Shown here piece after piece: positions 1,152 through 22,102 of a DNA stretch of 64,000 nt (the stretch's first letter is position 1; each line of letters opens with the position of its first letter). A program made the position numbers and the translations under genes. Below the pieces are notes generated by a model. The model saw only the letters and a list, made by a program, of their open reading frames with translations. It did no database searches and was not told where the DNA came from. Origin of the DNA: an uncultured Vibrio sp. (lineage in GTDB: Bacteria > Pseudomonadota > Gammaproteobacteria > Enterobacterales > Vibrionaceae); NCBI RefSeq assembly GCF_963675395.1, contig NZ_OY776223.1, forward strand, positions 248,001 to 312,000, written 5' to 3'.

Positions 1152-2930
1152 CTAGATTCTGCCTTGAAGAGGGATGATTGTCACGTTTTCTCCCACTTTA
1201 ACTGTGTCGATAGCGGGGGAGATTTCGATTAGACAATTCGCGTCACTCATCGAACGCAAAATACCAGAGCCTTGCTTACCAGTTGTACGAACGGTGAGGT
1301 GGCCGGTTTCGTCTAGCTGATAGAATCCACGGCTAAACTCCGTTCTGCCTTGACGAGAGCGTAAGTTTTCCGTTGCAACCGCATTTACTTTTAATGGTTG
1401 CCAGCCTTGTTCTCCCTGCATTTTTCGGATTGCTGGCTCAACGAAGTTTATAAACGAGACCATCACGGCAACAGGGTTTCCCGGCAAGCCAAAAAACGGT
1501 TTGTTGTTGATCTGACCAAAAGCAAGCGGGCGACCAGGACGCATGTTGATACGCCAAAAGTCAATTTGGCCCAACTTGTCCAAGGCTAACTTAATGTAGT
1601 CTGCATCACCAACTGACACGCCACCTGACGTCATCACCATGTCCACTTGCTGCGATGCTTGTTCTAATGCTTCGATCATCTGCTGTTCGTTATCTTCCAG
1701 AATACCAAAATCCAAAATTTCACACCCGAGCTGTTCAAGCATACCCAGAATGGTAAATCGGTTTGAGTCGAAGATTGAATTAGGCTTTTGCTCGGTGCCT
1801 GGCGCCTGTACTTCGTCGCCTGTAGAGAATACTGCTACTTTCAGTTTTCGGAATACATTTGCGTGCCCAAAACCAAGAGAGGCGATCATCCCCATTTCTG
1901 GAGAAGCAAGGCGAGTACCAGATTGAAAAACGTTACTGCCAATTTCAAGATCTTCACCAGCTTGACGAACGTTCTGACCCGCTTTGATGTTTGAAGCGTT
2001 AAACGTTACCTTGTCACCAGTTTGTGTCGTCTGTTCGCGCATCACCACTGTGTTACCATTAACTGGTGTTGGTGCGCCAGTCATGATTTTAACCGCTTGT
2101 CCCATTTCTAACGGTTTATCGTAAGCATGGCCTGCAAGTACTTCTGCCATCACTTGATAACTATCTCGTTCCAGATCGTCACTGCGAATAGCATAACCAT
2201 CCATTGCCGAGTTTGTGTATTGAGGAACATTAACCGGAGACACGATATCGTCGGCTAATACTCGTCCATAACTGCACTCAACTTCGCAGACTTCAACTTC
2301 AGTCAGAGGATGAACTAACGACAGTATTTTCTCCTGACCTTGTTCTACAGAAAGGTAAGCAGGGGATAAGGTGTCACAGCACGCGGCTTCTTTTTCTTTT
2401 GATTTCGGCTGTTTTGCTGCATTGGCATATTGAAGAACAAACTCTGCGATCGCGTCCAAATCGTTGATGTTCATTTGTGGTAATTCGGAGTCCAGCTCAT
2501 CACTGTCGGAGGCAATAGCGATGATGTTTTCGTCATGAGGATAAAGCCACGGCTTACCAACTTCGTCACGATGAAGTTCAACTTTGGGAAAGGCGATATT
2601 TTTACAACCTTCAACCAGAATAACGTCTAACTTGTCTTGATCAAAACGAGTTAACAGGTAGTCGAATTCTTCTTCGGCTACTGGTGTCTCCGTCAGCAAA
2701 GCAAAACGATTTCGGGAAGCGATCAACATTTGCGAAGCACCAGCCTTGCGCAAGCGATAGCTGTCTTTCCCCGGCTTATCGACGTCAAAATTGTGATGCG
2801 CGTGTTTTAACATACCAATACGCAAACCTGCTTCGGTTAGCTTTGGTAACAGTGCTTCTAGCAACGTAGTTTTACCGGTGCCTGAGTAGGCAGCAAAACC
2901 AAGAATAGGGATGTTTAGCGTGTGTTTCAT
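1152..2930 (-). CDS. moeA: Bifunctional MobB / molybdopterin molybdotransferase MoeA
   Basis: A 592-residue fusion. Residues 1 to about 175 are a MobB-type P-loop GTPase with Walker A YSGTGKTT near residue 16 and a VILVEGCK segment. Residues from about 195 are a full-length MoeA, with the NSAMDGYAI motif, [19 protein letters not shown] and [13 protein letters not shown]. MoeA inserts molybdate (or tungstate) into adenylylated molybdopterin; MobB helps MobA make the dinucleotide cofactor. The linker carries a Cys-Cys pair (AACCDTL). It is the last gene of the tup operon and overlaps mobA by 4 bases, so supply, insertion and nucleotide attachment are co-expressed. E. coli has separate mobB and moeA genes. 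Confidence 0.93.
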
Positions 2931-3514
2931 GATTCTAATTGTCCAAATTGCGCCAGTTCTTCCGGAGTATTTAAGTTGACGAAACAGTTTGGTGAGTCAC
3001 TGAAATCAACGTAACGGGTGTGACACTCTTTATAAAGCAAAATGATTTTTCGATCGCCACGCTCTAAAAACGCGGTCAATTTTGGCAGTACACGCTTATG
3101 GTACATAGTGAAAACAGGTTGCTGGTGATCACCATCATGAGCGACTAAAATATCAGTATCGTCTTCGACCGCCTGACAAAAACGCTCAACTAAGTCAGTA
3201 TTAATCTGTGGGCTGTCACAGGGAACAAATCCAACCCAGTCCGTCTCGGCGTGCACTAATCCAGCATGAATGCCGCCCATCGGGCCAGGGTAATCTTTGA
3301 ATTGATCACTGAAGACTAAGCCAAACTGACTGTACGCCTGTTGATTTCGGTTGGCATTGATCAAAATGCTTGGAGTTTGTGGAGATAAACGTTCGATGAC
3401 GTGTTTGATGAGTGGTTTTTGATTCAGCTCTATCAGACCTTTATCTTTTCCACCCATACGGCTAGCTTGACCACCAGCTAAAATGACCCAACTAGTTTGT
3501 GTTGGTTGAAGCAT
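2927..3514 (-). CDS. mobA: Molybdenum cofactor guanylyltransferase MobA
   Basis: MobA transfers GMP from GTP to molybdenum cofactor, making the guanine dinucleotide form used by DMSO-reductase-family enzymes such as the formate dehydrogenase encoded downstream. The nucleotidyltransferase signature [19 protein letters not shown] is near the N-terminus, with NANRN, the [15 protein letters not shown] segment and FVPCDSP following. I chose the ATG at 3514 (195 residues, the usual MobA length) because AAGAGAAC lies just upstream; a longer frame back to 3550 adds a basic stretch with no match to the family. It overlaps tupC by 23 bases and moeA by 4, indicating translational coupling. Confidence 0.92.
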
Positions 3515-4211
3515 ATGCGTTCTCTTGGGAGTTTTCTTTTGGTATGACATACAACAGTGGAGACTCTATCAAAGTCTTATTTTTAATCCACCACTGTTTT
3601 TTACATAAATCGGTTAGCGCGTTGGTTTGATGGCTGGTGATCACGATACTGGAACCACGATCCAACAGATCTTTAGCCATTACCACCAACCTTTCAATTG
3701 ATTCTGCGTCTAGTGAAGCACTTGGCTCATCCATCAATAAAATGGATGGTTTTAAGATCCACGCCCTTGCCATGGCTACGCGCTGCTTTTCACCACCAGA
3801 CAAAACAGAGATATGTTCATCGGCTAACGTTTCTAAGCCTACCATGCGTAGGGCGTTGATAACTTGCGCTCGCTTATCTTTTGCGTTGTCCTGTTGATAT
3901 TTCACGCCATAAACAACGTTTTCGTAAACACTACCATCAAACAAATAGGGGGACTGATGGAGATAAATGACGTCGACACGACCATTTCGGCGAGTCAGCT
4001 TCTTCAGCCAGGTATCTTTCGGCGCCGTTACCGTGCCAGTTGATGCCTTTAACAGACCGGCAAGGATTTTCAGCAGTGTTGTTTTACCGACACCATTATC
4101 GCCTTTGAGATAAATCGCATCGTTAGGTCCAATCGTTAACTCGGGAATGTGAAAGAGCACGCGCTCTTTAAAACGCATGGACAATTGCTCGGCGGTAATT
4201 TTTATAGTCAT
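3492..4211 (-). CDS. tupC: Tungstate ABC transporter ATP-binding protein
   Basis: A 239-residue ABC ATPase with Walker [10 protein letters not shown] (residues 37-45), ABC signature LSGGEKQR (137-144), Walker B ILLMDEP (157-163) and the H-loop near TSHQTN. It sits directly downstream of the permease and the TTTS-type binding protein, so it is assigned as the energising subunit of tungstate (possibly also molybdate) import. It lacks the C-terminal Mop oxyanion domain of ModC, as TupC proteins usually do. The downstream neighbour is mobA, which supports oxyanion delivery to cofactor synthesis. Confidence 0.88.
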
Positions 4212-4254: not shown

Positions 4255-4953
4255 TCATGTTCTAAGGTAGCCTTTACCTCTCATACTCGATAAGAAGAAG
4301 TTTAGGGCTAGTGCTAAAGATAGTAATACAATTCCCAATGCAACACCTTGCGCAAAAGCACCTTTACTGCTTTCCATTGCGATTGCTGTCGGAATATTAC
4401 GTGTCACGCCCATAATGTTGCCGCCCACCATCATTGAGCAACCGACTTCTGTAACGATTCGCGAAAAGCCTGCAATGACTGCTGCAAGTAACGGAAATCG
4501 AGTTTCCCAAATCATGGTTGCTGCGACACGCGGGAGTGATACACCCAAGGTAATCGACGTTTCAATCATACGGCGATCGCTCGATTGCAATGCACCGTGC
4601 ATCATTGAGACTAACACCGGAAAGCAGATCAACATTTGACCGAATATCATCGCTTTCTGTGTAAACAGCATTTGCCAGCCACCCCACGGGCCTGCTCTCG
4701 ACAAAAGCATGTAGAGCAATAACCCGATGACGACGGTTGGTACGGCTTGAAGCGTATTGACGATCGACAACAGAAACCATTTACCACGAAAATCGGTATA
4801 CGCGAGCACAAAGGACATCAGAATTGCGGGCAATACCACCAAAGAGATTGCCGTAATAGAAACACTAAAGGAGACCGCGACGATCTCCCAAAGCTCTGCA
4901 TCGAAATTCACCAGTAGCTGGAGTGCTTCTAGTGTTGTTTCAGCAAGATTCAT
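4255..4953 (-). CDS. tupB: Tungstate ABC transporter permease
   Basis: A 232-residue inner membrane protein with about five hydrophobic segments. The cytoplasmic EAA loop contacting the ATPase is visible around IETSITLGVSLPRVAATMIWETRFPLLAAVIAGFSRIVTEVG. The segment FSRIVTEVGCSMMVGGNIMGVTRNIPTAIAMESSKG is characteristic of TupB/WtpB-like permeases. It begins 6 bases after the tupA stop and is followed by tupC. TupB forms the channel that receives the oxyanion from TupA. Confidence 0.9.
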   Translation of the reverse strand: MNLAETTLEALQLLVNFDAELWEIVAVSFSVSITAISLVVLPAILMSFVLAYTDFRGKWFLLSIVNTLQAVPTVVIGLLLYMLLSRAGPWGGWQMLFTQKAMIFGQMLICFPVLVSMMHGALQSSDRRMIETSITLGVSLPRVAATMIWETRFPLLAAVIAGFSRIVTEVGCSMMVGGNIMGVTRNIPTAIAMESSKGAFAQGVALGIVLLSLALALNFFLSSMRGKGYLRT

Positions 4954-4959
4954 CGTGAC

Positions 4960-5778
4960 TTATTTACTGTCCGCGTTGGCGACAAACAGCTGTTTCCCGT
5001 TGAGGCGGAAGCTGTTAATCAATTCCTGCCCATGCTGGTTAACCAACCAATCACTGAATACTTGAGCACCTTTATGATTGATGGTTGGGTAACGTTCAGG
5101 GTTGACTAAGATCACCTGGTAAGGGTTAAACAGCATTTGATCACCTTGGAACAGAATTTCCAGGTCTAGTTTGTTTTGGTAGGCCAACCAAGTACCACGA
5201 TCTGTCATTGTGTAGCCTTGCATCTCAGATGCCATGTTTAGAGTAGGGCCCATGCCTTGTCCTACGCTGCGGTAGCCACCAAAGTTTGGTTCAATTTTGG
5301 TTTGCGCCCAAAAGCCCATTTCTTTCTTGTGTGTGCCAGAATCATCGCCACGAGAAATAAAGATCGCATCTTTGCTGGCAATTTCTTTAAACACATCAAG
5401 GACGCTTTCATCATCTTTGATTTCAGCTGGATCGGCCTTTGGACCAACAATCACAAAATCGTTGTACATGAGTTTACGAGGCTGAACACCATATCCTTTC
5501 TCTACGAATAGGCCTTCTGCTTTAGGCGCATGCGTCATTACCAAATCCACATCACCATTTTCACCCATTTTCAGTGCCTTGCCAGTACCAGCAGCAATAA
5601 TGTCGACTTTGTAGCCGGTCTCTTTTTCGAATTCTGGAAGCAGGTAATCCAGCAGTCCGGAATGGTAAGTACTGGTGGTGGTCGCTAAGCGAACGTGATC
5701 TCCATCTTGAGCGGAAAAAGCGGAGTAGCTTACTAGTGTGATTGACGTTGCAGCCAATGTTAGCGCAATTTTTTTCAT
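4960..5778 (-). CDS. tupA: Tungstate-binding periplasmic protein TupA
   Basis: The solute-binding protein that captures tungstate in the periplasm. From the ATG at 5778 it is 272 residues, with an N-terminal signal peptide (MKKIALTLAATSITLVSYSAFSA) followed by LATTTSTYHSGLLDYLLPEF; the TTTS motif is the oxyanion-binding hallmark of TupA. Further family features are AAGTGKALKMGENGDVDLVMTHAP and the RGDDSGTHKKE stretch. The open frame extends 28 codons upstream to 5862, but the signal peptide and GGAAAGGAAAC, about 10 bases ahead of 5778, fix the start. It is first gene of an operon with a sigma-54 promoter upstream (5931-5945). Confidence 0.92.
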   Translation of the reverse strand: MKKIALTLAATSITLVSYSAFSAQDGDHVRLATTTSTYHSGLLDYLLPEFEKETGYKVDIIAAGTGKALKMGENGDVDLVMTHAPKAEGLFVEKGYGVQPRKLMYNDFVIVGPKADPAEIKDDESVLDVFKEIASKDAIFISRGDDSGTHKKEMGFWAQTKIEPNFGGYRSVGQGMGPTLNMASEMQGYTMTDRGTWLAYQNKLDLEILFQGDQMLFNPYQVILVNPERYPTINHKGAQVFSDWLVNQHGQELINSFRLNGKQLFVANADSK

Positions 5779-5930
5779 TTTTATTTGTTTCCTTTCCAAT
5801 GATGTTTCGGGTTCTGGCGCGTTTAAGGCGTTAGAAGTTCCTGAACGATCTTGATTGCTCAAATCACAAGCCTTCCTTGAGTCGCAGGCTCAAAGTACCT
5901 AACGTATTGACGACTTGGATACCCCTTATA

Positions 5931-5945
5931 GCAAACAAGATGCCA
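5931..5945 (-). promoter_or_regulatory. Sigma-54 (-24/-12) promoter of the tup-mob-moe operon
   Basis: Read leftward, the sequence is TGGCATCTTGTTTGC, with GG and GC separated by exactly 10 bases, as sigma-54 promoters require. The start would be near 5919, leaving a leader of about 140 bases before tupA. It is nearly the same as the fdh promoter at 14006-14022. The interval 5779-6098 holds this promoter, two repeated sites and no convincing gene. Confidence 0.75.
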
Positions 5946-6015
5946 ACAATATTCAACCTAAAATTGTGCGATTTATGCGCCATTTCATAGACTTGTTTGC
6001 ATAAACTCTCCCCTT

Positions 6016-6030
6016 GGTACAAAATGTCCC
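6016..6030. promoter_or_regulatory. Candidate enhancer site 1 for the sigma-54 activator
   Basis: GGTACAAAATGTCCC is an imperfect inverted repeat with half-sites GGtACA / TGTCCC around 3 bases. It is repeated 45 bases further on. It lies about 105 bases upstream of the inferred tup transcription start, the usual range for enhancer-binding proteins. Confidence 0.6.
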
Positions 6031-6060
6031 AATTATTGCGCAGGGTAATCCTGTAGCGTT

Positions 6061-6075
6061 GGTACACTCTGTCCC
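6061..6075. promoter_or_regulatory. Candidate enhancer site 2 for the sigma-54 activator
   Basis: GGTACACTCTGTCCC has the same half-sites and spacing as site 1; including the flanking TT and A, 15 of 18 positions agree. It ends 23 bases before the regulator's ATG, so binding here could also repress the regulator's own transcription. Confidence 0.6.
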
Positions 6076-6098
6076 ACCTAAAACCAACTGGGGTAAAT

Positions 6099-7550
6099 AT
6101 GTCCGCTCAATCCCATATTAGTACAAAGCAACAATACAATGCCTTTTCAGTACTGGTCGTAGATGACGAGCTAGGCATGCAAGCCATTTTGAAAAAAGCG
6201 TTGGGAAAAATGTTTTCCCAGGTTGATACGGCTGGCTGCATTGAGGAAGCAGAGCAACTAAGAAGCTCTCGCCATTATGATCTGATTTTACTCGACATTA
6301 ATTTACCCGGACGTTCAGGGATTGAGTGGGAAGAAGCCTTTACCGATGATGAAAAAAGAGCGGATGTGATCTTTATGACCGGTTATGCCGATCTTGAAAC
6401 TGCGATTCGAGCACTTCAGCTAGGTGCTTCAGATTTTATTCTCAAGCCTTTCAATCTCGATCAAATGCTGAAATCAGTAACCCGTTGTATGGATCGTCGA
6501 TTGAACGAGCGTATGCAATATGCTTTGAAGCGTGATTATCAACGCTACAACAGCTCGGAAATCATCGGTGGTTCAGAGAAAACCCGTCAACTTAAGTTAC
6601 TGATAACTCAGTTTGCACCATCACGTGCGTCTGTATTGATTGAAGGGGAGTCGGGGACAGGGAAAGAGCTGGTCGCGCGTGGTATCCATCAGGCCAGCGG
6701 CAGAAATGGTCCATTTGTTCCCGTTAACTGCGCAGCGATAGCGCCAGAACTATTAGAAAGTGAGCTTTTTGGTCACACTTCCGGCGCATTCACCGGTGCC
6801 AAAAAATCACGTGAAGGTTTATTTCGAGTGGCCAATAGCGGAACACTTTTCCTTGATGAAATCGGTGAAATGCCATTATCGATGCAAGCATCACTTTTAC
6901 GTGTATTAGAGCAGCGTACAATCAGACCGGTTGGCTCAGAGAAAGAAATCAGCATTGATGTCCGTGTGGTCGCCGCGACGAACCGAAACCTTCAAGACGA
7001 AGTGAATCAAGGTAACTTCCGTAGCGATTTGTATTACCGCCTCAACGTTCTGAAGATCGAAGTATGCCCGCTTCGCGAGCGTAAAAGTGATCTCTTGGAT
7101 CTCGTGCCTTTTTTCAGCAACATGTTGACCCGTGAGTTAGGCATGCCCGCACCTAAGTGGGCTCATGAAGATATGGAAGCGATGAACGAATACGATTGGC
7201 CAGGTAACATCCGTGAGCTAAAAAATTTGATTGAGCGCTGTATTTTACTTGGAAAACCTCCTGCTCATCATTGGCGCGAAATAAATGGCACTCACACTTT
7301 GCCGAGTGTATCAATGACCGTCTCGCATACTGCTGAGCTTCCGATGCTAAAGGAAAACAACGAGTTTTTAGGCGACGGCTATCCCAATACTTGGACTCTA
7401 AAGGAAGTCGAAAAAGCGCACATTCAGCAGGTTGTCACGCTGCATGAAGGTAACAAATCGGCAGCAGCGCGTGATTTAGGTGTGGCACGCAAAACGTTAG
7501 AGCGTAAGTATAAAGAGTGGGACGCAGAGGATGAGGAATATGCCAACTAA
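6099..7550 (+). CDS. Sigma-54-dependent response regulator (NtrC family)
   Basis: A 483-residue enhancer-binding protein. Residues 17-130 are a receiver with acidic pocket D22/D23 and phospho-acceptor D66 (LILLDINLPG). The AAA+ domain (about 155-385) has Walker A GESGTGKE, the sigma-54 contact loop GAFTGA, Walker B GTLFLDEIGEM and the arginine-finger region FRSDLYYRLNVL. The C-terminus is a Fis-type helix-turn-helix (NKSAAARDLGVARKTLERKYKEW). The kinase gene overlaps its end. It is divergent from tup and near the fdh cluster, both of which carry sigma-54 promoters, so it is the natural activator of both. The specific signal is not evident. Confidence 0.93.
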   Translation: MSAQSHISTKQQYNAFSVLVVDDELGMQAILKKALGKMFSQVDTAGCIEEAEQLRSSRHYDLILLDINLPGRSGIEWEEAFTDDEKRADVIFMTGYADLETAIRALQLGASDFILKPFNLDQMLKSVTRCMDRRLNERMQYALKRDYQRYNSSEIIGGSEKTRQLKLLITQFAPSRASVLIEGESGTGKELVARGIHQASGRNGPFVPVNCAAIAPELLESELFGHTSGAFTGAKKSREGLFRVANSGTLFLDEIGEMPLSMQASLLRVLEQRTIRPVGSEKEISIDVRVVAATNRNLQDEVNQGNFRSDLYYRLNVLKIEVCPLRERKSDLLDLVPFFSNMLTRELGMPAPKWAHEDMEAMNEYDWPGNIRELKNLIERCILLGKPPAHHWREINGTHTLPSVSMTVSHTAELPMLKENNEFLGDGYPNTWTLKEVEKAHIQQVVTLHEGNKSAAARDLGVARKTLERKYKEWDAEDEEYAN

Positions 7551-9582
7551 GTGGCAGCAACACAAAGGATTGTCTAAGTGGACGCATCGGTTTAAAACCA
7601 TGGTGCGTTATCGACTATTAATTCTGACGTCTGCCCCGATCTTTATGACGCTGTTTGCGTTAATTGCCATCACCATTTATTGGTCTATTCAATACACGTG
7701 GCAGAATACGCTGCTGGATGTTTCCGAACGACTAGGTGTTGCTGAAAATAGTGTCGAGCTACTGCAACAAAAACAAGCCAACTTTGTTACTGCATTCGCA
7801 GATTCCTATGATTTTCATAATCGTATTAATCAGAATACGCCACCGGAAGAACTCCAGGCTTGGGTCTCCACCCAGAAGCATCGTTACGGGTTAGATTTTC
7901 TTTCATTCCAACACGTGAACTCAGTTGAAAACAAATTCCGCTTTATGGATTTGACTAAACGGGAGTCGTTCTTCGATATATTGAATAAAGAAGAGCTGGA
8001 GCAACTCGATCCCGATCTAGCTAAACGGGCAGAAGTGTCGATCGTGAGCCCTGCTAGTGCAACAGAGACCCGTGGGTTAGTAAGCCGCACGGTCATCCCT
8101 GTTTATAATCGCTCTAACGACTTAATCGGCTTCTTAGACGGTGGATTACTCCTCAATAATAGTACCGTATTGGTCGATCAAATCCGCGACCTTATTTACC
8201 CCAATGTGAATGACCGATTGCGATCAGTGGGGACCCTGACATTGTTTCTGTCTGACCTGCGGGTAAGCACCAACGTACCACTGGACAGTGATCACCGTCT
8301 TGGCAGGGCAATTGGAACGAGAGTGAGTAGCGAAGTTTCTGAGCAGGTGCTGTCCCGAGGTGAAATGTGGGTCGGTCGAGCTTTCGTCTATGATGCCTGG
8401 TATATCACGGCTTACCAGCCCATTAAAGACCAATATGATAACGTGATTGGCATGCTATATACTGGGTATTTAATGTGGCCGTTTGTCAAAGCGTATATGA
8501 CGAACATTGCGGAAGTTAGCCTGATGACCCTGATGTTGCTACTGGTGTCCGGAGTAATGGTCTACCGAGGTTCCCGTGATTTATTTCATCCGATAGAACG
8601 TATTCACAAGGTCGTTAAACTGGTTCAACTGGGTAAAGAAAAGCGTATTGGGCCTTTAGGGCTTGATGACGATCATGAGTTGGCGCAACTGGCGAAGCAG
8701 TTTGACAACATGTTGGACGCACTGCAAGAACGTAAGGTAGAGCTGAAGAATGCAGCCGCCCAGCTCGAGTGCAAAGTGCAAGAGCGAACGGCGAGTCTGC
8801 GAGAAAAAACCCAAGAGCTAGAACTGCACATTCAGTTGCTCAATCAAACCAAAGACAAACTGGTGGTTCATGAAAAGCTCTCTGCGCTAGGAGAACTCAC
8901 TGCAGGCATTGCTCATGAAATCAATAACCCGACCGCGGTGATTCTTGGCAATATCGAATTAATTCATTTTGAACTGGGTGAGGACGCGAATCGGGTTCAA
9001 GAAGAAATTGACGCTATTCATGCGCAAATTGATCGCATCAGAAATATTACCCGCAGTTTGTTGCAATACAGCCGACAGGGTGGTGTCCAAGATGAAATCA
9101 CCTGGCAGCATGTCAACCCGATCATCGATGAGAGTATTACTTTGGTTAAAACGGGAACGAAGAAGCGAGATGTTGAATTTGTTACCGACCTTCAAGCTCA
9201 TACTTCAGTCGAGATTAATCGCCACCATTTACTACAGATTTTAGTTAACTTACAGATGAATGCGATTCACGCCATGAACGGCAAAGGTAAGTTGGTCGTC
9301 ACCAGCAGTGACTGGATGGAAGGTAACGAGATCAGAGGTGCTGTTATCCACGTTGCAGACGAAGGCTGTGGTATCAAGCCAGAAAACGTGAGTCGTATAT
9401 TCTCACCGTTCTACACAACCAAACGAGACGGCACGGGATTGGGGCTGTCTGTGTCTCAAAGTATTCTTAGCCAAACGGGTGGTGAGCTAAAAGTAGAATC
9501 CGAGTGGGGTAAAGGCACTGTCTTCAGCATTTACTTACCCAAGAAAGCCGAGTTAGTGTTAGAGGTCACCAATATCGCCTAA
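7540..9582 (+). CDS. Membrane sensor histidine kinase, partner of the sigma-54 regulator
   Basis: About 680 residues. A first membrane helix (about residues 25-47) and a second (about 320-342, SLMTLMLLLVSGVMVY) enclose a periplasmic sensor region of some 270 residues, probably Cache-like. A HAMP linker, a coiled coil (ERKVELKNAAAQLECKVQERTASLREKTQELE) and an NtrB/ZraS-like kinase core follow: phosphorylated His in GIAHEINNPTAVILGN, N-box NLQMNAIHAM, G1 DEGCGI, G2 GTGLGLSVS. The gene overlaps the regulator. I prefer ATG 7540 (GAGG 9 bases upstream) over ATG 7531. The ligand cannot be read from the sequence; formate or an oxyanion would fit the context. Confidence 0.9.
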   Translation: MPTKWQQHKGLSKWTHRFKTMVRYRLLILTSAPIFMTLFALIAITIYWSIQYTWQNTLLDVSERLGVAENSVELLQQKQANFVTAFADSYDFHNRINQNTPPEELQAWVSTQKHRYGLDFLSFQHVNSVENKFRFMDLTKRESFFDILNKEELEQLDPDLAKRAEVSIVSPASATETRGLVSRTVIPVYNRSNDLIGFLDGGLLLNNSTVLVDQIRDLIYPNVNDRLRSVGTLTLFLSDLRVSTNVPLDSDHRLGRAIGTRVSSEVSEQVLSRGEMWVGRAFVYDAWYITAYQPIKDQYDNVIGMLYTGYLMWPFVKAYMTNIAEVSLMTLMLLLVSGVMVYRGSRDLFHPIERIHKVVKLVQLGKEKRIGPLGLDDDHELAQLAKQFDNMLDALQERKVELKNAAAQLECKVQERTASLREKTQELELHIQLLNQTKDKLVVHEKLSALGELTAGIAHEINNPTAVILGNIELIHFELGEDANRVQEEIDAIHAQIDRIRNITRSLLQYSRQGGVQDEITWQHVNPIIDESITLVKTGTKKRDVEFVTDLQAHTSVEINRHHLLQILVNLQMNAIHAMNGKGKLVVTSSDWMEGNEIRGAVIHVADEGCGIKPENVSRIFSPFYTTKRDGTGLGLSVSQSILSQTGGELKVESEWGKGTVFSIYLPKKAELVLEVTNIA

Positions 9583-11654: not shown

Positions 11655-12485
11655 TTATTTGTTGTTACTGCCTTTCACATCAAACTCCATTTTTTCTGCG
11701 CCAGTAAAGACCTGAAAACGCAACCCTTTCGCACGGGCAATCGTTGTAATGCCATATTGTTGAGCCAGATCCAACCCCATCTGTGTCACACCGGAGCGAG
11801 AAAGCAGAACAGGAATACCCATTTGAGCCACTTTAATGACCATCTCCGATGTCAGACGCCCTGTTGTATAGAATATTTTGTCATCGCCCGTTTCCTGATT
11901 TAACCACATTTCTCCGGCGAGCGTATCAACCGCATTGTGACGACCTACATCTTCCACAAACGACAACACTTCATTACCTTTACAAATGGCGCACCCGTGA
12001 ACCGCACCTGCTTTTCGGTAGGTATCGTTGTAATGTGTCAATGCTTCTAGGGTCGCATAGATTTCTGACTGCTTTAGCGGCACTTGCGGAACTTGATAGT
12101 TCTCCAATTGCTTCATCACATTGCCGTACATGGTACCTTGGCCACAACCTGAGGTGACGGTTTTCTTTTTCAGTGCGCCTTCTAAATGCTCAATGTTTTC
12201 TTTCGTGATCACGGCTGCTGAATGCGTTTCCCAATCAATGATCACGGACTCTATCGCTTCAGGGTCAGCTAAAAAGCTTTGATTCTTTAGGTAGCCCAAG
12301 ACTAAGGCCTCTGGACGGGACCCAATCGTCATCAGCGTCACAATTTCTTTCCAGTTCAGCATCACGGTAAGAGGTCGCTCACAAGCAATCTGTTTAGTCA
12401 GCTTTTCACCATATTCGTCGTACACATCGACTTCGATAGTCTGCAGGGGATTTTCACTGGTTTTAATAATATTTGGTTTTACCAC
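11655..12485 (-). CDS. fdhD: Formate dehydrogenase accessory sulfurtransferase FdhD
   Basis: FdhD passes sulfur from the cysteine desulfurase to the molybdenum (tungsten) centre of formate dehydrogenase, which is needed for activity. The 276-residue protein shows RPLTVMLNWKEIVTLMTIGSRPEALVLGYL, the catalytic-loop region TSGCGQGTMYG with Cys114, HGCAICKG, FVEDVGRHNAVDTLAGE and YTTGRLTSEMVIKVAQMGIPVLLSRSG. The loop has a single Cys where E. coli FdhD has a Cys-x-x-Cys pair. It diverges from DUF3305/3306, with a sigma-54-like promoter about 70 bases upstream, so it probably belongs to the same regulon as the fdh operon. Confidence 0.93.
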   Translation of the reverse strand: MVKPNIIKTSENPLQTIEVDVYDEYGEKLTKQIACERPLTVMLNWKEIVTLMTIGSRPEALVLGYLKNQSFLADPEAIESVIIDWETHSAAVITKENIEHLEGALKKKTVTSGCGQGTMYGNVMKQLENYQVPQVPLKQSEIYATLEALTHYNDTYRKAGAVHGCAICKGNEVLSFVEDVGRHNAVDTLAGEMWLNQETGDDKIFYTTGRLTSEMVIKVAQMGIPVLLSRSGVTQMGLDLAQQYGITTIARAKGLRFQVFTGAEKMEFDVKGSNNK

Positions 12486-12554: not shown

Positions 12555-12569
12555 GCAAATCTCATTCCA
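12555..12569 (-). promoter_or_regulatory. Sigma-54-like promoter upstream of fdhD
   Basis: Read leftward: TGGAATGAGATTTGC, with GG and GC 10 bases apart. It departs from TGGCAC at the C, so it is weaker than the tup and fdh promoters. It is placed about 70 bases before the fdhD ATG. Confidence 0.45.
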
Positions 12570-12717: not shown

Positions 12718-12733
12718 TGGCGCGTTTATTGCT
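12718..12733 (+). promoter_or_regulatory. Sigma-54 promoter of the DUF3305-DUF3306 genes
   Basis: TGGCGCGTTTATTGCT matches the consensus TGGCACR-N4-TTGCW at nearly every conserved base, with GG and GC 10 bases apart. The start would be near 12744, about 70 bases before the DUF3305 ATG. The rest of 12486-12815 holds no gene; no clear GGTACA-N3-TGTCCC site lies upstream, only a weak GGGTCAGAATGTCCT at 12762-12776 on the downstream side. Confidence 0.65.
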
Positions 12734-12815: not shown

Positions 12816-13283
12816 ATGTCGGACAATAATAAAGACTTAGAAAACAAATACGAGAAAACCGAAGATTCATGGCCTTTAGGCGTAGAATTGGTTGAGCATG
12901 AAATTATCACAGGCGTTTGGGTAACGACCCAGTGGCAATTAACAAACTTTATACTGACGCCTACAAAAGACACCACTGATATTTGCCTTCTCCAACTCCA
13001 CAGAGATGAACGTACTGATTACCGTTTTAATCTCAGCTCTCAAAACCCGAAACTCTTTCTCGTGATGGATTACCTAGACTCTAATGAGAAGCCAACCATA
13101 CAACTTCTCACCGCTTCTCAAGCCGTTGCAGCGCGATATATGGATGGAGACAACCTCGTCTTATCCAATGACATGCCACTGCCTGTACAGGCTTGGATGG
13201 AGGCTTTTATTGGGCGTCATGGTGAGATGTTAGAGATGAAAGGTAAGAAACGCAAAGGAGCGGGTAGAGCAAATGGCAACTAG
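12816..13283 (+). CDS. DUF3305 domain protein, formate dehydrogenase-associated
   Basis: A 155-residue soluble protein that I recognise as DUF3305: a WPLGVELVEHEIITGVWVTTQWQL segment (Trp-rich, antiparallel-strand pattern), then a region with HRDERTDYRFNLSSQNPKLFLVMDY, and a basic tail (KGKKRKGAGR). Genes of this family recur beside fdhD and formate dehydrogenase operons, usually with DUF3306. Its biochemical role is not known; an assembly factor for the dehydrogenase is an inference from context. It overlaps the DUF3306 gene by 11 bases and is preceded by a sigma-54 promoter. Confidence 0.82.
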   Translation: MSDNNKDLENKYEKTEDSWPLGVELVEHEIITGVWVTTQWQLTNFILTPTKDTTDICLLQLHRDERTDYRFNLSSQNPKLFLVMDYLDSNEKPTIQLLTASQAVAARYMDGDNLVLSNDMPLPVQAWMEAFIGRHGEMLEMKGKKRKGAGRANGN

Positions 13284-13887
13284 TCATGATTTTTTAAGCC
13301 GTTGGTCAAAACGGAAGCTAGAAGAATCTCAAAGCACTCTCGGAGAAGCTACCCCAAGCGACGAGACAGAAACCGATGTCGTGGGACGTCTTTCATCTGA
13401 AGAGGTCCTTGAAAACGACATAGCTGAAGTGACTGCGACGACAGAAGCAAGCGAGACAACTGCTGACGCTGATGAGCAAAAGCCAGAAGAGATGTCGATT
13501 GCGAATCTATTGGTTTCAGAAGCTTCAGAAAGCGTAAAAAAAGCCGCTTTACGTAAATTGTTTTTATCAGAAGAGTTTAATATCCGTGATGGGTTAGATG
13601 ATTACGATGACGATTACAGCAATTTGAAGTCACTTTCAGAAGGTGTAGCAGAAACACTGCGAGACTGGGTGAAAGATAAAACTGAAGACGACGCAACAAT
13701 TGAAGACAATGAGCTGGCTGTGGTTCAAACAGAGGCTTCAAATGCTGATGAAAATGAGCAAGAAATCGTCGAACCTTCTCAAAATGAAGCTGAACTGTAC
13801 AAATATACAGTGGCGGGTGAAAATGGCACTTCAGAGTCAGAATCGCTATCAGAACAAGTAGGACAAAATATACCACACTCAAAATAG
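13273..13887 (+). CDS. DUF3306 domain protein, formate dehydrogenase-associated
   Basis: A 204-residue, strongly acidic protein. The N-terminal FLSRWSKRKLEES motif and the central KKAALRKLFLSEEFNIRDGLDDYDDDYS segment are the DUF3306 hallmarks; the sequence between and after them is low-complexity and rich in Glu, Ala and Ser. It is translationally coupled to DUF3305 (11-base overlap). Members are found almost only with formate dehydrogenase loci, so an accessory role is likely, but no reaction is known. The last bases and the following terminator coincide with candidate enhancer sites for the fdh operon. Confidence 0.8.
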   Translation: MATSHDFLSRWSKRKLEESQSTLGEATPSDETETDVVGRLSSEEVLENDIAEVTATTEASETTADADEQKPEEMSIANLLVSEASESVKKAALRKLFLSEEFNIRDGLDDYDDDYSNLKSLSEGVAETLRDWVKDKTEDDATIEDNELAVVQTEASNADENEQEIVEPSQNEAELYKYTVAGENGTSESESLSEQVGQNIPHSK

Positions 13888-13901
13888 GTACATTTTGACT
13901 A
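13887..13901. promoter_or_regulatory. Candidate enhancer half-conserved site upstream of the fdh operon
   Basis: GGTACATTTTGACTA: the left half-site GGTACA is identical to both tup sites, the right half keeps only TG and C. Its centre is about 138 bases upstream of the inferred fdh start. Confidence 0.35.
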
Positions 13902-13913
13902 AACACTCAACTG

Positions 13914-13948
13914 GCCGGGTGGGACATATTGTCTCATCCGGCTTTTTT
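13914..13948 (+). terminator. Terminator after DUF3306, containing a candidate enhancer site
   Basis: A 13-bp stem (GCCGGGTGGGACA / TGTCTCATCCGGC, two G-U pairs) with a 3-base loop and TTTTTT. The tip of the stem, GGGACATATTGTCTC at 13921-13935, has the same GGnACA-N3-TGTCyC form as the tup sites, about 104 bases upstream of the inferred fdh start. Confidence 0.8.
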
Positions 13949-14005: not shown

Positions 14006-14022
14006 TGGCATGACGCTTGCTA
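14006..14022 (+). promoter_or_regulatory. Sigma-54 promoter of the formate dehydrogenase operon
   Basis: TGGCATGACGCTTGCTA, with GG and GC 10 bases apart, is close to consensus and to the tup promoter. The predicted start near 14032 leaves a leader of about 160 bases containing a hairpin (TTGTCTG 14061-14067 with CAGACAA 14094-14100). Confidence 0.8.
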
Positions 14023-14192: not shown

Positions 14193-15854
14193 ATGTTGAA
14201 ACAACTATTAGAACAAACGACTTCCAGCAACGGTAAAGCAAGACTGTTCGCTTTTGAAAATACCATCGAGTTGACAAACCTGATCCCACCGACGGTGAGC
14301 TACGAAAGTGGCGGTAACACTTTAATTGTCGGTCCGACGGCGATCATTGAAAGTGCCGCAGCTCAATTATCACAAATGAACAGCCTTACGTTGCTTTCTA
14401 CTGACGGAGAAAAGGGAACTCACAGTGCGCTGTATTATGCGAATTCTGTTCAGGTGTCTGGCTTCCTGGGTACATTTGAAGTAATTATTGAAAACAATGG
14501 TTCGACAAACAATCTCGCTAAAGTAGCGATTAATACGGATTGTTTCGACGTCGTTCTCGACCTTTGCCTTAACAGCTGTATGTCTGAGGAAGTGCCAGCT
14601 CCGGGTTATTACCCAGTCGGTCGTGGCTATCCGAAACTCGCAGAAGCGCTGGAAGAAATCCCGACGTTAATGGGGACGTTTGATAAACCCAAGTTTTTCC
14701 GTTTAGATACCGACTTGTGTGCGCACAGTTCTCGAGGCGTAAAAGGTTGTGATCGTTGTGTTGATGCCTGTCCGGCGGGCGCACTCTCCAGTGAAGGTAG
14801 TCCTAAAACAGGACATCGTATCGAGATTAACCCATACCTGTGTCAGGGTGTCGGAACTTGTGCAACCGCATGTCCTACAGAAGCGATTCATTACGCACTC
14901 CCAAATCCAGAAGATACGCAAAAATTTATCGAACGTACCTTAGCTAATTATGAAAAAGCAGGTGGCGTTGATCCTATCGTACTGATTTGTAGTTCACGCC
15001 ATGAAACGTACAACGTGATGGCTTTAAAAGCGCTTCCAGATAACGTCATTCCTATTGTGGTTGAAGAGTTGCCATCTGTTGGTATCGATACTTGGTTTGC
15101 TGCGCTTGTGAACGGAGCGACTCAGGTTCTGTTTGCGGCTTCACGTTTTATGCCGCCAACCATTTTGCGCGTACTTAATAGTGAAGTCGGGATAGCACAA
15201 GAATTACTTGACCAACTTGGCATTGCAAAAGAAACCATCGATATCTTGTATTTGGAATCTCTGCGTGAAGGCGCACCGACATTGTGTACAGATTCCTTCG
15301 ATTTAGCGGTAGGAGAGCTCCAAGGCAATAAACGTCAGCGCTTGTTTACCGCGTTAGATGCGTTATCTGCCTCACGTATCCCTGTCGATAATATCGTTGA
15401 GTTACCAGGAAATGCGCCTTACGGCTCGGTTTCTTGTGAAAGTAAAGACTGTACCTTATGTATGAGCTGTGTCGCTGTGTGTCCGACTCGCGCATTACAT
15501 ACTGATGGTCAGTCTCCGTCTCTTAAATTTGTTGAACAAGATTGTGTTCAATGTGGCTTATGTGAAAAAGCGTGTCCAGAAAATGTGCTTACGCTAACGC
15601 CTCGCATGAACTGGGTAAAAGAAGAGCGTCAGAAAGTTGTGGTAATTCACCAAGAAAAAGCCGCTGAGTGTCTTCGTTGCCACAAACCATTCGCCCCTCA
15701 ATCCATGATCGACATGTTGCAAAACAAGCTGCGTGGGCATTCTCATTTTACTGATGAAGCCGCTATCAACCGTATCGCCATGTGTGAAGACTGCCGCGTG
15801 GTCGATATGTTTGAATCGATGGCCTCTGACCCATTGAAACAACTCAAGTATTAG
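14193..15854 (+). CDS. 4Fe-4S ferredoxin-type protein of the formate dehydrogenase operon
   Basis: A 553-residue cytosolic iron-sulfur protein, first gene of the fdh operon. The N-terminal ~165 residues have no motif I recognise. Two ferredoxin-like cluster regions follow: CDRCVDACP and CQGVGTCATACP around residues 185-230, then CTLCMSCVAVCP and CVQCGLCEKACP around 415-465; the C-terminal part adds CLRCHKPF and CEDCR, a possible zinc or further cluster site. Proteins of this layout accompany Tat-exported formate dehydrogenases in Vibrio and other gamma-proteobacteria and may move electrons during assembly or link the enzyme to cytosolic carriers; the exact role is not settled. It is followed 9 bases later by the chaperone gene. 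Confidence 0.85.
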   Translation: MLKQLLEQTTSSNGKARLFAFENTIELTNLIPPTVSYESGGNTLIVGPTAIIESAAAQLSQMNSLTLLSTDGEKGTHSALYYANSVQVSGFLGTFEVIIENNGSTNNLAKVAINTDCFDVVLDLCLNSCMSEEVPAPGYYPVGRGYPKLAEALEEIPTLMGTFDKPKFFRLDTDLCAHSSRGVKGCDRCVDACPAGALSSEGSPKTGHRIEINPYLCQGVGTCATACPTEAIHYALPNPEDTQKFIERTLANYEKAGGVDPIVLICSSRHETYNVMALKALPDNVIPIVVEELPSVGIDTWFAALVNGATQVLFAASRFMPPTILRVLNSEVGIAQELLDQLGIAKETIDILYLESLREGAPTLCTDSFDLAVGELQGNKRQRLFTALDALSASRIPVDNIVELPGNAPYGSVSCESKDCTLCMSCVAVCPTRALHTDGQSPSLKFVEQDCVQCGLCEKACPENVLTLTPRMNWVKEERQKVVVIHQEKAAECLRCHKPFAPQSMIDMLQNKLRGHSHFTDEAAINRIAMCEDCRVVDMFESMASDPLKQLKY

Positions 15855-15863
15855 GAGCTCACA

Positions 15864-16490
15864 GTGGAAAAACAGCAAGAACAAACACTGAGAACAGAAA
15901 TATACCTGATTTTATCGGCGCTTTTTCGTAGTGCGCCAACGGAAGAGATGCTTGAGTTTCTTAAGTCTCTGCAAGTAGAACCTTCGGCAAGTGCAATGCA
16001 ACAAGCTTGGATTGCGCTTCAGCTAGCGGCTGAAAATGCCGAAAGAGAATCGCTTGAAGATGAATATCAAAATCTCTTTATCGGTATTGGTCGTGGTGAA
16101 GTCGTTCCATTTGGATCATGGCACCTCACTGGGTCAATGATGGAGAAGCCGCTGGCGGATATTCGTCACGATTTAGATTTACTGGGCATAGAGCGCGCTG
16201 AAAACGTGAAAGAACCCGAAGATCACATTTCAGCACTTTGTGAAGTCATGGCCATGCTGACTGACGAAGAAGAGGGCTTGCAACAAGCAGTGTTTAACAA
16301 ACACATCGCTCCTTGGTTCAAAGCGTTTACTCACCAATTAGAAAATGCGGAAAGCGCGGATTTTTACCAGCCAGCAGCTCAACTTTGCGACGCATTTTTA
16401 ACTCTAGAACAGGTGAGATTTAGCGAGAACACCAAGAGTAGCAAAGCCAAATTAAAAATTGATGTGAAAAACGTCACTGATTACGAGTAA
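15864..16490 (+). CDS. TorD/DmsD-family chaperone for formate dehydrogenase
   Basis: A 208-residue all-helical cytosolic protein of the TorD family, which binds Tat signal peptides and holds the catalytic subunit until the cofactor is inserted. The segment LEDEYQNLFIGIGRGEVVPFGSWHLTGSMMEKPLADIR contains the conserved E-Y-x-x-L-F-x-G-x-G-x-x-x-x-P-Y/F-x-S pattern; a later EPEDHISALCEVMAML stretch matches the E-P-x-D-H-I-x-x-x-x-E motif. It starts with GTG behind AGGAG. Its position just before the Tat micro-protein and fdhA indicates the FdhA signal peptide as client. Confidence 0.9.
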   Translation: MEKQQEQTLRTEIYLILSALFRSAPTEEMLEFLKSLQVEPSASAMQQAWIALQLAAENAERESLEDEYQNLFIGIGRGEVVPFGSWHLTGSMMEKPLADIRHDLDLLGIERAENVKEPEDHISALCEVMAMLTDEEEGLQQAVFNKHIAPWFKAFTHQLENAESADFYQPAAQLCDAFLTLEQVRFSENTKSSKAKLKIDVKNVTDYE

Positions 16491-16560
16491 TCAAGCCGTA
16501 CAAAGTCATATCGATAGAGAGGCATGAACCTCCAAAGATCTACCGGAAGGTAAGGAAGCA

Positions 16561-16764
16561 ATGATGAAAGATAATAAAGAAATAAACTCAAGCCGCAGGG
16601 AGCTATTGAAAGGCTTCACAACCGCTGCCGTTGCTGGTGCCGTCGTCGCTGGAACCACGAAAGTGGCAAACGCGTCAGAATCCGTTGAGTCTTCTGAAAA
16701 AGATGTGAAGAAGAAAGGGTACCGTGAAACTCAACACATTCGTGATTACTACGACACACTTTAG
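16561..16764 (+). CDS. Tat-signal micro-protein of the formate dehydrogenase operon
   Basis: A 67-residue protein with a twin-arginine motif near residue 11 (SSRRELLKG), a hydrophobic stretch (TTAAVAGAVVAGTTKVANA) and a short charged tail (VKKKGYRETQHIRDYYDTL). Small Tat-signal proteins like this are annotated as formate dehydrogenase accessory or hypothetical proteins and always precede a Tat-exported fdhA. It may be an extra small subunit or travel with the FdhAB complex. It has a clear Shine-Dalgarno (AAGGAAGC) and lies 10 bases before fdhA. Confidence 0.8.
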   Translation: MMKDNKEINSSRRELLKGFTTAAVAGAVVAGTTKVANASESVESSEKDVKKKGYRETQHIRDYYDTL

Positions 16765-16774
16765 GAGGTAAGAG

Positions 16775-19630: not shown

Positions 19631-19641
19631 GGAGTCTGACA

Positions 19642-20250
19642 ATGGCACGAATGAAATTCCTATGTGACACCAAACGCTGTATCGAGTGTAACGGCTGTGT
19701 TACTGCATGTAAGAATGAAAATGACGATGCACTTGAGTGGGGTATTCAGCGCCGCCGCGTTGTAACACTAAATGACGGTGAGGCAGGTGAAAACTCGATT
19801 TCTGTCGCTTGTATGCACTGTACGGACGCGCCTTGTATGGCAGTTTGTCCTGCAGATTGTTTTGAGCACACAGAAGATGGCATCGTACTGCACAACAAAG
19901 ATCTGTGTATCGGTTGTGGTTACTGTCTGTTTGCGTGTCCATTTGGTGCGCCTCAGTTCCCTAAACAAGAAGCGTTTGGTGAGCGTGGAAAAATGGACAA
20001 ATGTACCTTCTGTGCTGGCGGTCCTGAGACGGAACCTGGTTCGGTTGAAGAACGTCGGAAATATGGTGCGAACCGTATTGCGGAAGGCAAACTACCTATG
20101 TGTGCGTCATTATGTTCAACGAAAGCCTTGTTGGCCGGTGATGCAGAGAAAGTATCTGATATTTTCCGTCAGCGTGTTGTAGAGCGCGGCGCTAAGAATG
20201 CAGGTTGGACAGACGGAAATGATCTTTCTTACGACGCAACAAAAAGCTAA
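19642..20250 (+). CDS. fdhB: Formate dehydrogenase iron-sulfur subunit
   Basis: The 202-residue beta subunit, carrying electrons from FdhA to the membrane cytochrome. It has the four ferredoxin cysteine groups of this family: CDTKRCIECNGCVTACK, CMHCTDAPCMAVCP, CIGCGYCLFACPFGAPQFP and CTFC...CASLC. It has no Tat signal of its own and should be exported with FdhA. It lacks the C-terminal membrane anchor of FdnH, so it must bind the membrane through FdhC. It follows fdhA by 11 bases and precedes fdhC by 14. Confidence 0.94.
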   Translation: MARMKFLCDTKRCIECNGCVTACKNENDDALEWGIQRRRVVTLNDGEAGENSISVACMHCTDAPCMAVCPADCFEHTEDGIVLHNKDLCIGCGYCLFACPFGAPQFPKQEAFGERGKMDKCTFCAGGPETEPGSVEERRKYGANRIAEGKLPMCASLCSTKALLAGDAEKVSDIFRQRVVERGAKNAGWTDGNDLSYDATKS

Positions 20251-20264
20251 GTAAGGAGAGACAC

Positions 20265-21317
20265 ATGTTAAACACTTTAAAACGTGCGTCTCTGGTAATG
20301 CTGTCAATCATGACAGCATTACTGCTGACTTTCTCAATGCCAGCGTCCGCAGAAGAGCAATCTTCCAAAGTCGTGCAGCAGGAAATGACACAACTCGCAG
20401 GGGCGGACTATTGGCGTCAGATCAGGCAGGGTGAGTCAGGTTACACCACGTCTCAATCACCAGAGCATGGCGTGCTAATCAGTAAGCCGGGCGAAACCTG
20501 GTACATCCTGAAAGAAAAGTGGATGTCACCAGCCGGTGCTATCGCTATTTTCGGCAGTATCGCGATGGTTGTATTGGCTTATGTCTTTGTCGGGCCTCTA
20601 ATGCTAAGTAAGCCTCGCACAGGCAAAAAGATTAAGCGCTGGTCTCGACTCGATCGTGCACTGCACTGGAGCATGGCGTTTACCTTTTTAACCCTGGCGT
20701 TCAGTGGGTTGATGCTCGTCTACGGCAAACACTTCCTGAAACCTTACGTGCCTAGTGAGTTCTGGGGTTTCATCGTTATGCTGGCGAAGCAATATCACAA
20801 CTACATGGGGCCGCTGTTCTTTATCTTGCTGATGTTAATTCTGCTGAAATGGTGGCGTAAATCGATCCCGAACATGACGGACGTACGTTGGTTCATGAAA
20901 ATGGGTGGTATGGTTGGTAAACACAAAGGCACTCATCCATCGGCAGGCTTCTCAAACGGTGGTGAGAAAGCGGTTTACTGGCTACTCATTTTCGTCGGTG
21001 CAATCGCTGCAGCAAGTGGTCTGGTTTTGGATTTCCCTATCTTTGATCAAACCCGCCGTGATATGGAGTTGTCTAACCTGATTCACGCAGTCTCGGCGCT
21101 CATTCTTATCTGCGGCTTTGTTTTCCACATCTATATCGGCTTGTTCGGTATGGAAGGCGCACTGGAAGGCATGGTAACGGGTGAGGTTGACGAAACATGG
21201 GCGAAAGAGCACCACGATCTCTGGTACGAAGAAGTCAAATCTCAACAGGCAATGGGAGAATCAGACGAGGTTAAAGCAACAGATAAAGGAGCGAAAGCGA
21301 ATGAACAAACATCATAA
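20265..21317 (+). CDS. fdhC: Formate dehydrogenase cytochrome b556 subunit
   Basis: The 350-residue gamma subunit, a di-heme cytochrome b that passes electrons to quinone. A cleavable signal peptide (about residues 1-29, ending SMPASAEE) precedes a periplasmic stretch of about 55 residues and then membrane helices. Heme-ligand histidines are in RALHWSMAFTFLTLAFSGLML, AKQYHNYMGPLFFILLMLILL and LIHAVSALILICGFVFHIYIG. The C-terminal tail is charged and cytoplasmic. The stop overlaps the next gene by 17 bases. Confidence 0.92.
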   Translation: MLNTLKRASLVMLSIMTALLLTFSMPASAEEQSSKVVQQEMTQLAGADYWRQIRQGESGYTTSQSPEHGVLISKPGETWYILKEKWMSPAGAIAIFGSIAMVVLAYVFVGPLMLSKPRTGKKIKRWSRLDRALHWSMAFTFLTLAFSGLMLVYGKHFLKPYVPSEFWGFIVMLAKQYHNYMGPLFFILLMLILLKWWRKSIPNMTDVRWFMKMGGMVGKHKGTHPSAGFSNGGEKAVYWLLIFVGAIAAASGLVLDFPIFDQTRRDMELSNLIHAVSALILICGFVFHIYIGLFGMEGALEGMVTGEVDETWAKEHHDLWYEEVKSQQAMGESDEVKATDKGAKANEQTS

Positions 21318-22006: not shown

Positions 22007-22102
22007 TTGTTAGACGCTTTATAAGTTTTATTCACCATTTTGGTGATGGTTGATTTTTATTGCACAGGATAAGTGCGCACAACACTAACGGAGACAATCA
22101 TA

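Follow-up and report, generated by a model that had tools for sequence, protein, structure and literature searches.

Control of formate metabolism through sigma-54 is known from FhlA of Escherichia coli, a one-component, cytosolic, formate-responsive activator of formate dehydrogenase (FDH) genes that serves formate hydrogenlyase. TupABC tungstate transporters are governed elsewhere by ModE/TunR-type repression. The locus considered here lies in a window of 64,000 nucleotides (the whole stretch of DNA analysed; contig NZ_OY776223.1, positions 248,001 to 312,000) from an uncultured Vibrio sp., and encodes a two-component system (6099-9582) divergent from an operon for a TupABC-like transporter, which is predicted to be under sigma-54 and two-component control in place of ModE/TunR-type repression. 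The favoured reading, at a probability of roughly 0.75, is an NtrC-type system that responds to formate and turns on formate dehydrogenase along with tungstate/molybdate uptake and cofactor synthesis.

As in the FhlA regulon, formate dehydrogenase genes would be activated through sigma-54 by a formate-responsive enhancer-binding protein. FhlA has neither receiver nor kinase, whereas the window's regulator carries a Response_reg domain and has a kinase gene downstream, which sets it apart from the FhlA type; and in place of formate hydrogenlyase, the window's system would control an FDH3-type enzyme together with metal uptake and the synthesis of molybdopterin guanine dinucleotide (MGD). Searches of the open-licence PMC literature turned up no two-component, Cache_3-type version whose control extends to metal uptake and MGD synthesis.

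In the proposed mechanism, formate would bind the periplasmic domain of the kinase, which would phosphorylate the NtrC-type regulator. The regulator would bind palindromic boxes of the approximate form GRGACA-N3-TGTCYC and activate sigma-54 RNA polymerase at the promoter of tupABC-mobA-mobB/moeA (metal oxyanion uptake and MGD-cofactor synthesis) and at that of the formate dehydrogenase (fdh) operon, and may also act at the DUF3305-DUF3306 and fdhD promoters. Binding, phosphorylation, formate as the signal and the identity of the metal are inferred. Such a switch would make metal uptake and cofactor synthesis rise with the presence of substrate, not with scarcity of metal.

The tup promoter and its boxes

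The genes and sites of the two-component system and the tup operon are as follows (HTH, helix-turn-helix).

6099-7550, plus strand: NtrC-family response regulator, with receiver, AAA+ domain with GAFTGA, and Fis-type HTH (domain search)
7531-9582, plus strand: membrane sensor histidine kinase, with periplasmic sCache_3_3 / Cache_3-Cache_2 domain
4960-5778, minus strand: tupA-like periplasmic tungstate/molybdate-binding protein
4255-4953, minus strand: tupB-like permease
3492-4211, minus strand: tupC-like ATPase
2927-3550, minus strand: mobA, molybdenum cofactor guanylyltransferase
1152-2930, minus strand: mobB-moeA fusion
5931-5945, minus strand: -24/-12 sigma-54 promoter of tupABC-mobA-mobB/moeA, TGGCATCTTGTTTGC, GG-N10-GC spacing, inferred start about 5919
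6016-6030: predicted regulator box 1, GGTACAAAATGTCCC, exact GGTACA-N3-TGTCCC
6061-6075: predicted regulator box 2, GGTACACTCTGTCCC, 45 base pairs (bp) from box 1, shortly before the regulator start codon

A preliminary description of this DNA had proposed a minus-strand sigma-54 element and two copies of GGTACA-N3-TGTCCC 45 bases apart. Both stand: a motif scan of the window returned TGGCATCTTGTTTGC at 5931-5945 with the GG-N10-GC spacing, and both box copies are exact. The distances required correction, since a start 12 bases past the GC of the -12 element (about 5919) puts the boxes at about 97-156 bases upstream, centred on 104 and 149, and not at 93-150. From this start a leader of about 141 bases runs to the tupA start codon at 5778, and the gap between the last box and the promoter is 70 bp, a distance that varies in other species. 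A conserved -24/-12 element whose activator boxes stand some 100 bp or further upstream is the arrangement of NtrC-type promoters, the regulator has the domains of NtrC-type proteins (receiver, GAFTGA-bearing AAA+ domain, Fis-type HTH), and the rpoN gene is present in the window's genome.

The two boxes are the only places in the entire 64-kb window that match GGTACA-N3-TGTCCC with at most one mismatch; at three mismatches, 37 matches compare with a chance level of 33.7. The consensus of the box family is approximately GRGACA-N3-TGTCYC. Genome-wide, the looser GGNACA-N3-TGTNCC occurs at 12 places, two being the tup boxes and eight being one different repeated motif. This motif is the perfect palindrome GGAACAASTTGTTCC (for instance at G000:C2:58120-58134 and in loci L001-L003, L006, L007 and L010-L012), and looks like an operator or repeat of some other system.

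As box 2 lies a short way before the regulator start codon, feedback of the regulator on its own gene is possible. In V. cholerae, a chromatin immunoprecipitation sequencing (ChIP-seq) peak of AphA is listed between VC1522 and VC1523 in a table of PMC6855506, presumably at the counterpart of the 5785-6098 intergenic region, so that quorum sensing may feed into this region. In the available excerpts of the literature, VC1522 appears in one AphA-peak table and one list of regulators.

The transporter proteins are classed as TupABC-like only, with tungstate as a putative substrate, as they fall below the NCBIfam equivalog cut-offs (NF041772/3/4): TupA reaches 236.6 of 400 bits, TupB 175 of 320 and TupC 100.1 of 400. 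The binding protein, permease and ATPase are homologous to those of TupABC transporters, and TupA in particular is homologous to solved tungstate-binding proteins (PDB 3lr1, E 2.7e-71; 5my5, E 4.6e-68).

A second sigma-54 promoter upstream of the formate dehydrogenase operon

Tungstate transport, the scope assigned to the system in the preliminary description, proves too narrow. The fdh operon at 14193 is likewise preceded by such boxes and by a -24/-12 promoter of its own, and the natural reading is thus an FDH regulon that includes its metal and cofactor supply. The relevant features are listed below (TAT, twin-arginine translocation).

13860-13935: three boxes of the fdh promoter, at 13860-13874 (weak, score 9.8), 13887-13901 (weak, 10.6) and 13921-13935 (strong, 21.5)
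14006-14020, plus strand: -24/-12 sigma-54 promoter of the fdh operon, TGGCATGACGCTTGC
14193-21317, plus strand: fdh operon, 8 kb from the tup promoter, with Fe-S protein (14193-15854), chaperone (15864-16490), TAT-target protein (16561-16764), catalytic subunit (16775-19630), FDH3 beta (19642-20250) and gamma (20265-21317) subunits
12718-12732, plus strand: -24/-12 element of the DUF3305-DUF3306 genes (12816-13887), TGGCGCGTTTATTGC, one mismatch
12555-12569, minus strand: -24/-12-like element of fdhD (11655-12485), TGGAATGAGATTTGC, one mismatch

The strict palindrome GRGACA-N3-TGTCYC has a single occurrence in the window's genome, at the fdh promoter. When one mismatch was allowed, a whole-genome scan gave 13 places versus 15 for a reversed-pattern control, making any further genomic targets indistinguishable from chance. 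Elements similar to that of fdhD precede the gene in L187, L188, L191, L192, L223 and L224. In family f6, the stretch separating fdhD from DUF3305 holds a box scoring at least 12 in L184, L186, L193 and L196; the fdh cluster is far from the two-component genes in several f6 genomes, and in these no box was found before the Fe-S gene itself. Shortly past the fdh operon stands an ammonium transporter gene (22073-23323); in L225, L227, L229 and L231, a gene for a similar protein adjoins the two-component genes.

Conservation across loci

The main set comprised 78 kinase-bearing loci, mostly from Vibrio, with some from Grimontia, Enterovibrio, Photobacterium and Moritella. The regulator and kinase genes adjoin tupA, tupB, tupC and mobA in all 78, with moeA present at 77 (the exception, L025, is a short contig), and every regulator carries GAFTGA. 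A search across the tupA upstream regions of these loci, a check mentioned for Vibrio in the preliminary description, bore out the proposed motifs: TGGCAY-N5-TTGC precedes tupA in 79/79 loci (window included), and a box lies between tupA and the regulator gene in 78/78 at a score of at least 12 or at least 15. The matrix used to score boxes was derived from the tup sites, and the tup count is therefore not independent, whereas the fdh count is: a box of at least 15 occurs in 41 of the 41 fdh upstream regions, that is, in all loci reaching the fdh operon. At a threshold of 17, 46 sites were found in 16,359 bp of fdh upstream sequence versus 12 in 1,614,557 bp elsewhere in the same loci. As a control, 15 column-permuted matrices gave means of 4.7 tup and 2.3 fdh sites; their maxima, 71 and 35, presumably stem from a permutation close to the true matrix.

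Spacing is also conserved, with neighbouring boxes 45 bp apart in 58 sequences and 61 bp apart in two. Among the 42 fdh sequences (the window and 41 loci), a clear promoter follows the last box in 27 (the window and 26 loci), at a gap of exactly 70 bp in 23; the remaining 15 have a promoter with one or two mismatches, 69-94 bp from the last box. No clear helical period emerged from the box-promoter distances, which take 22 distinct values (R 0.28 at 10.5 bp, 0.39 at 10 and 0.40 at 11). By coordinates, 11 of the 12 off-target sites lie inside moeA (for instance L082:4719). This palindrome was not counted as regulatory and is probably a coding constraint, as L211 and L212, which lack the regulator, carry one too (score 15.8).

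The promoters, the boxes, their conservation and, as described below, their loss together with the regulator can be read from the genomes themselves, and the predicted link between regulator and promoters is strong.

Sigma-54 dependence in published data

The dependence of tup expression on rpoN, which had been posed as a condition of the model, was already in print. In the available portions of PMC9817140, a transcriptome of an rpoN deletion in V. parahaemolyticus, VP1501 is listed as a 'hypothetical protein' with the motif TTGGCATCTTGTTTGCTAT and a log2 change of -1.45, and this motif is letter-for-letter identical to the window's tup promoter. VP1501 could be either tupA itself or a short reading frame in the leader of the same transcript. 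The deletion also lowers VP1508 (log2 -1.84) and VP1510-VP1515 (-3.17 to -4.75), and the motifs homologous to the window's fdh and DUF3305 promoters stand under VP1510 and VP1508, respectively. VP1501, VP1508 and VP1510 are flagged in the same source as V. cholerae RpoN ChIP-seq peaks.

The tables of the V. parahaemolyticus/V. cholerae RpoN regulon therefore contain the promoters found here, with VP1501 and VP1508 entered as hypothetical and, in the portions available, neither activator nor signal named. Control of tungstate transport by sigma-54 and a two-component system had seemed an unfamiliar mechanism; its sigma-54 half was thus published, unnamed, and a likely regulator and a probable signal are what the present analysis supplies. 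By domain and neighbourhood, the V. parahaemolyticus counterparts of the regulator and kinase are VP1502 and VP1503, which in the excerpt available of PMC10469919 are STRING-predicted partners of an ABC transporter. As far as the open-licence PMC texts were available, regulator targets and kinase signal were not named anywhere found, and the accessible parts of PMC7759655, PMC13215616, PMC11755831 and PMC11540253 hold nothing on the regulator-kinase system.

The earlier proposal that the neighbouring regulator activates tupABC-mobA-moeA is accordingly upheld as regards the sigma-54 promoter, the enhancer boxes and, by conservation, co-loss and rpoN dependence (PMC9817140, in part), the likely binder; it was incomplete in that it missed the fdh half.

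The kinase sensor domain

The periplasmic domain of the kinase matches PF17202 (sCache_3_3; E 1.4e-27, 96.6 bits against a cut-off of 28.8) and, overlapping it, PF17201 (Cache_3-Cache_2; 64.1 bits, cut-off 27.7), and the kinase is the sole sCache_3_3 match in the window's genome at E <= 1e-4. The residues of interest are encoded here:

8260-8319, plus strand: stretch with kinase R244, T247 and T263, aligned to PacF R142, T145 and T158

Formate is bound by the Cache_3-Cache_2 receptor PacF, in which alterations of R142, T145 and T158 affect binding (PMC12501870, as available). The accessible part of PMC12415202 describes an sCache_3_3 receptor that binds formate and has the residues reported for this. 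In the case of Atu0526, an Arg is needed for the formic acid response, yet its loss raised affinity (PMC8698456, from the excerpt available). These chemoreceptors, as far as the three sources could be consulted, share with the kinase a periplasmic Cache_3-type domain with conserved Arg and Thr. PacF-type receptors drive chemotaxis, whereas the window's sensor is a histidine kinase with a predicted transcriptional output.

Conservation was assessed in 37 of 44 prepared sensors, with L080, L183, L185, L194, L195, L226 and L231 left out and, among these, L183, L185, L194 and L195 inspected separately. R244 and T247 are invariant in 37/37 and T263 is present in at least 90%. The profile of the 37 sensors matches the chemoreceptor sensor domains PDB 8py0 (E 0.00095) and 8py1 (E 0.003), and that of seven plasmid-borne relatives matches 8py0 at E 5.1e-5 and 8py1 at E 2.5e-5, the alignment spanning the key residues. 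Counted by hand, R244/T247/T263 align with 8py0 R103/T106/T119, the kinase having three extra residues between the last two; an offset of 39 turns the 8py0 numbers into PacF R142/T145/T158, with the same spacing. The kinase thus shows two marks of a Cache_3-type formate sensor, namely a domain above the Pfam cut-off and Arg/Thr/Thr at the PacF positions, and most likely binds formate in the periplasm.

Co-occurrence and natural losses

Kinase and fdh operon mostly occur together. Of 197 genomes surveyed across the order, 35 carry the kinase (E <= 1e-60) and 36 encode a strong homologue of the fdh Fe-S protein (E <= 1e-100); the two lists disagree only in G083. In 296 genomes of the family, the kinase (E <= 1e-100) is found in 214 and the Fe-S protein (E <= 1e-60) in 221; comparison of the lists by eye gave 206 genomes with both, eight with the kinase only, 15 with the Fe-S protein only and 67 with neither. 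One kinase-only genome, G271 (L232), stops at a contig edge within the fdh cluster, and two Fe-S-only genomes, G231 and G251, still have the regulator, together with a kinase whose core matches but whose N-terminal part is shorter and does not.

The other 13 Fe-S-only genomes keep both operons, with fdhD adjoining tupA; the regulator, sought within the fetched locus, and the kinase were not found there, and the best kinase match anywhere in these genomes (E 7e-37) covers the kinase core only. In these 13 loci, a box of at least 12 was found in 0 of 52 partly overlapping 450-bp regions upstream of tupA, the Fe-S gene, DUF3305 and fdhD, and a sigma-54-like element (at most one mismatch) in 1 of 52. 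Random 450-bp windows from the same loci contain such a box in 46 of 780, a figure that includes true sites and so overstates chance, and a sigma-54-like element in 47 of 780, from which about 3 in 52 would be expected versus the 1 observed.

Losses of other kinds also occur. L223 and L224, the loci of the two Fe-S-only genomes with an unmatched sensor, which belong to another genus of the family, keep a strong box (21.5) between tupA and the regulator gene, the matching sensor being absent; their kinase match covers residues 412-674 only, and the N-terminal part is shorter and unmatched. In L225-L231, seven genomes of the window's genus, the two-component genes are kept and tup and fdh are absent, with mobA adjoining in 5/7. 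All seven regulators lack the GAFTGA loop that contacts sigma-54, which suggests that they act without it. In L229, a box, GAGACAAAATGTCGC, still lies between the regulator gene and mobA. GAFTGA has likewise disappeared from the regulator of the f6 genome L189, which shows no box at tup.

Plasmid-borne relatives

A search with the sensor region gave matches in 104 plasmid records (E <= 1e-8), from which 14 loci (L234-L247) were picked to spread over genera; three are unannotated and were searched with known proteins. Ten have an adjacent NtrC-type regulator, and FDH genes or an OFA transporter lie nearby in 12, including all ten with the regulator. FDH catalytic genes are found near six sensors (Ponticoccus, Variovorax, Alloyangia, Azospirillum twice, Paracoccus alcaliphilus), accessory genes near one more (Sagittula) and an OFA-family transporter near six (Ponticoccus, Shinella, Rhizobium, Leisingera, Paracoccus twice). 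None of the 14 has a tupA-like or tupB-like match, and L244 alone has an annotated molybdate-binding protein.

Boxes of at least 14 precede the FDH or OFA gene in seven of the ten loci with an adjacent regulator. Where the plasmid regulator has an intact GAFTGA, a -24/-12 element is present in Shinella and Rhizobium, and one with a single mismatch in Azospirillum; none was found there in Ponticoccus (GVVPGA), Leisingera (GAFPGA) or Variovorax (GAFAGA).

Alternative explanations

The alternative that survives best keeps the same regulon and regulator and changes the signal, which would be another small carboxylate (oxalate or pyruvate, for instance), redox state, or contact between the sensor and tungstate-loaded TupA. 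This is unlikely, if still a serious competitor. Formate binding by the kinase is predicted from sequence comparison, and L223 and L224 keep regulator, box and operons with an unmatched sensor, so another input can drive the system. OFA transporters, which adjoin several relatives, are as a family not formate-specific, and the ligand could thus be another small acid. Against this stand the conserved PacF-type Arg/Thr/Thr, and the FDH3, NAD-linked and fdnG-type FDH genes that adjoin relatives in alpha- and beta-proteobacteria.

A response to tungstate/molybdate starvation, in which lack of metal would be sensed and the FDH promoter would be secondary, is improbable. The regulator gene is divergent from the transporter in 78/78 loci, which speaks for it, but the sensor's domain type binds formate in the receptors studied (PMC12501870 and PMC12415202, as far as available), and the plasmid loci carry the sensor without tupA-like or tupB-like matches. 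Least probable of all is that a different regulator binds the boxes and the two-component system is a bystander, for although regulator-box binding is itself a prediction, boxes are missing from the 52 upstream regions of regulator-less loci, persist where only the sensor is unmatched and adjoin distant regulator homologues in alpha- and beta-proteobacteria, and GAFTGA is missing from the regulators of the seven genomes without tup and fdh.

A number of observations weigh against the formate-responsive regulon itself. With regard to the promoters, the fdhD-DUF3305 interval has no box of at least 15 in any of 45 main-set loci, and one of at least 12 in only 8 of 45. In L223 and L224, no -24/-12 element (at most one mismatch) was found within 450 bp upstream of tupA, nor any box ahead of the Fe-S gene of the fdh operon. 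In an electrophoretic mobility shift assay, RpoN alone gave no shift of the VP1510 promoter, and the authors suggest possibly indirect control (PMC9817140, available portions). No experiment on the regulator or the kinase was found in the open-licence PMC literature. With regard to the sensor, T263 is replaced by Ser in some relatives, and the identity of 8py0 with PacF is deduced from numbering. The 13 regulator-less loci have one common gene order and are not independent events, and, more generally, evolutionary losses share ancestry, making independent events fewer than genomes. The 14 plasmid loci were hand-picked from the 104 records; those of Sulfitobacter and Pseudosulfitobacter (L234, L238), two genera to which 61 of those records belong, lack FDH, OFA and an adjacent regulator. 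The Variovorax regulator, with GAFAGA, has no -24/-12 element before fdh, and that of Paracoccus alcaliphilus has GAFPGA, yet a matching -24/-12 element precedes the regulator gene.

Implications

Beyond Vibrio, the comparisons lean, less firmly than for the window's own system, towards a family of formate-sensing kinases, spread across the proteobacteria, that would act with NtrC-type partners through a common GGACA-N3-TGTCC operator to control formate use. The gamma-proteobacterial branch would have brought tungstate/molybdate uptake and MGD synthesis under its control, making substrate, and not metal scarcity, the inducer of metal acquisition, and some branches have lost GAFTGA and are probably sigma-54-free.

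For the family, the analysis offers a function and a probable signal for an uncharacterised two-component system present in 214 of 296 genomes, and would explain entries called hypothetical in published RpoN data. In these organisms, formate sensing would be tied to the supply of metal and cofactor.

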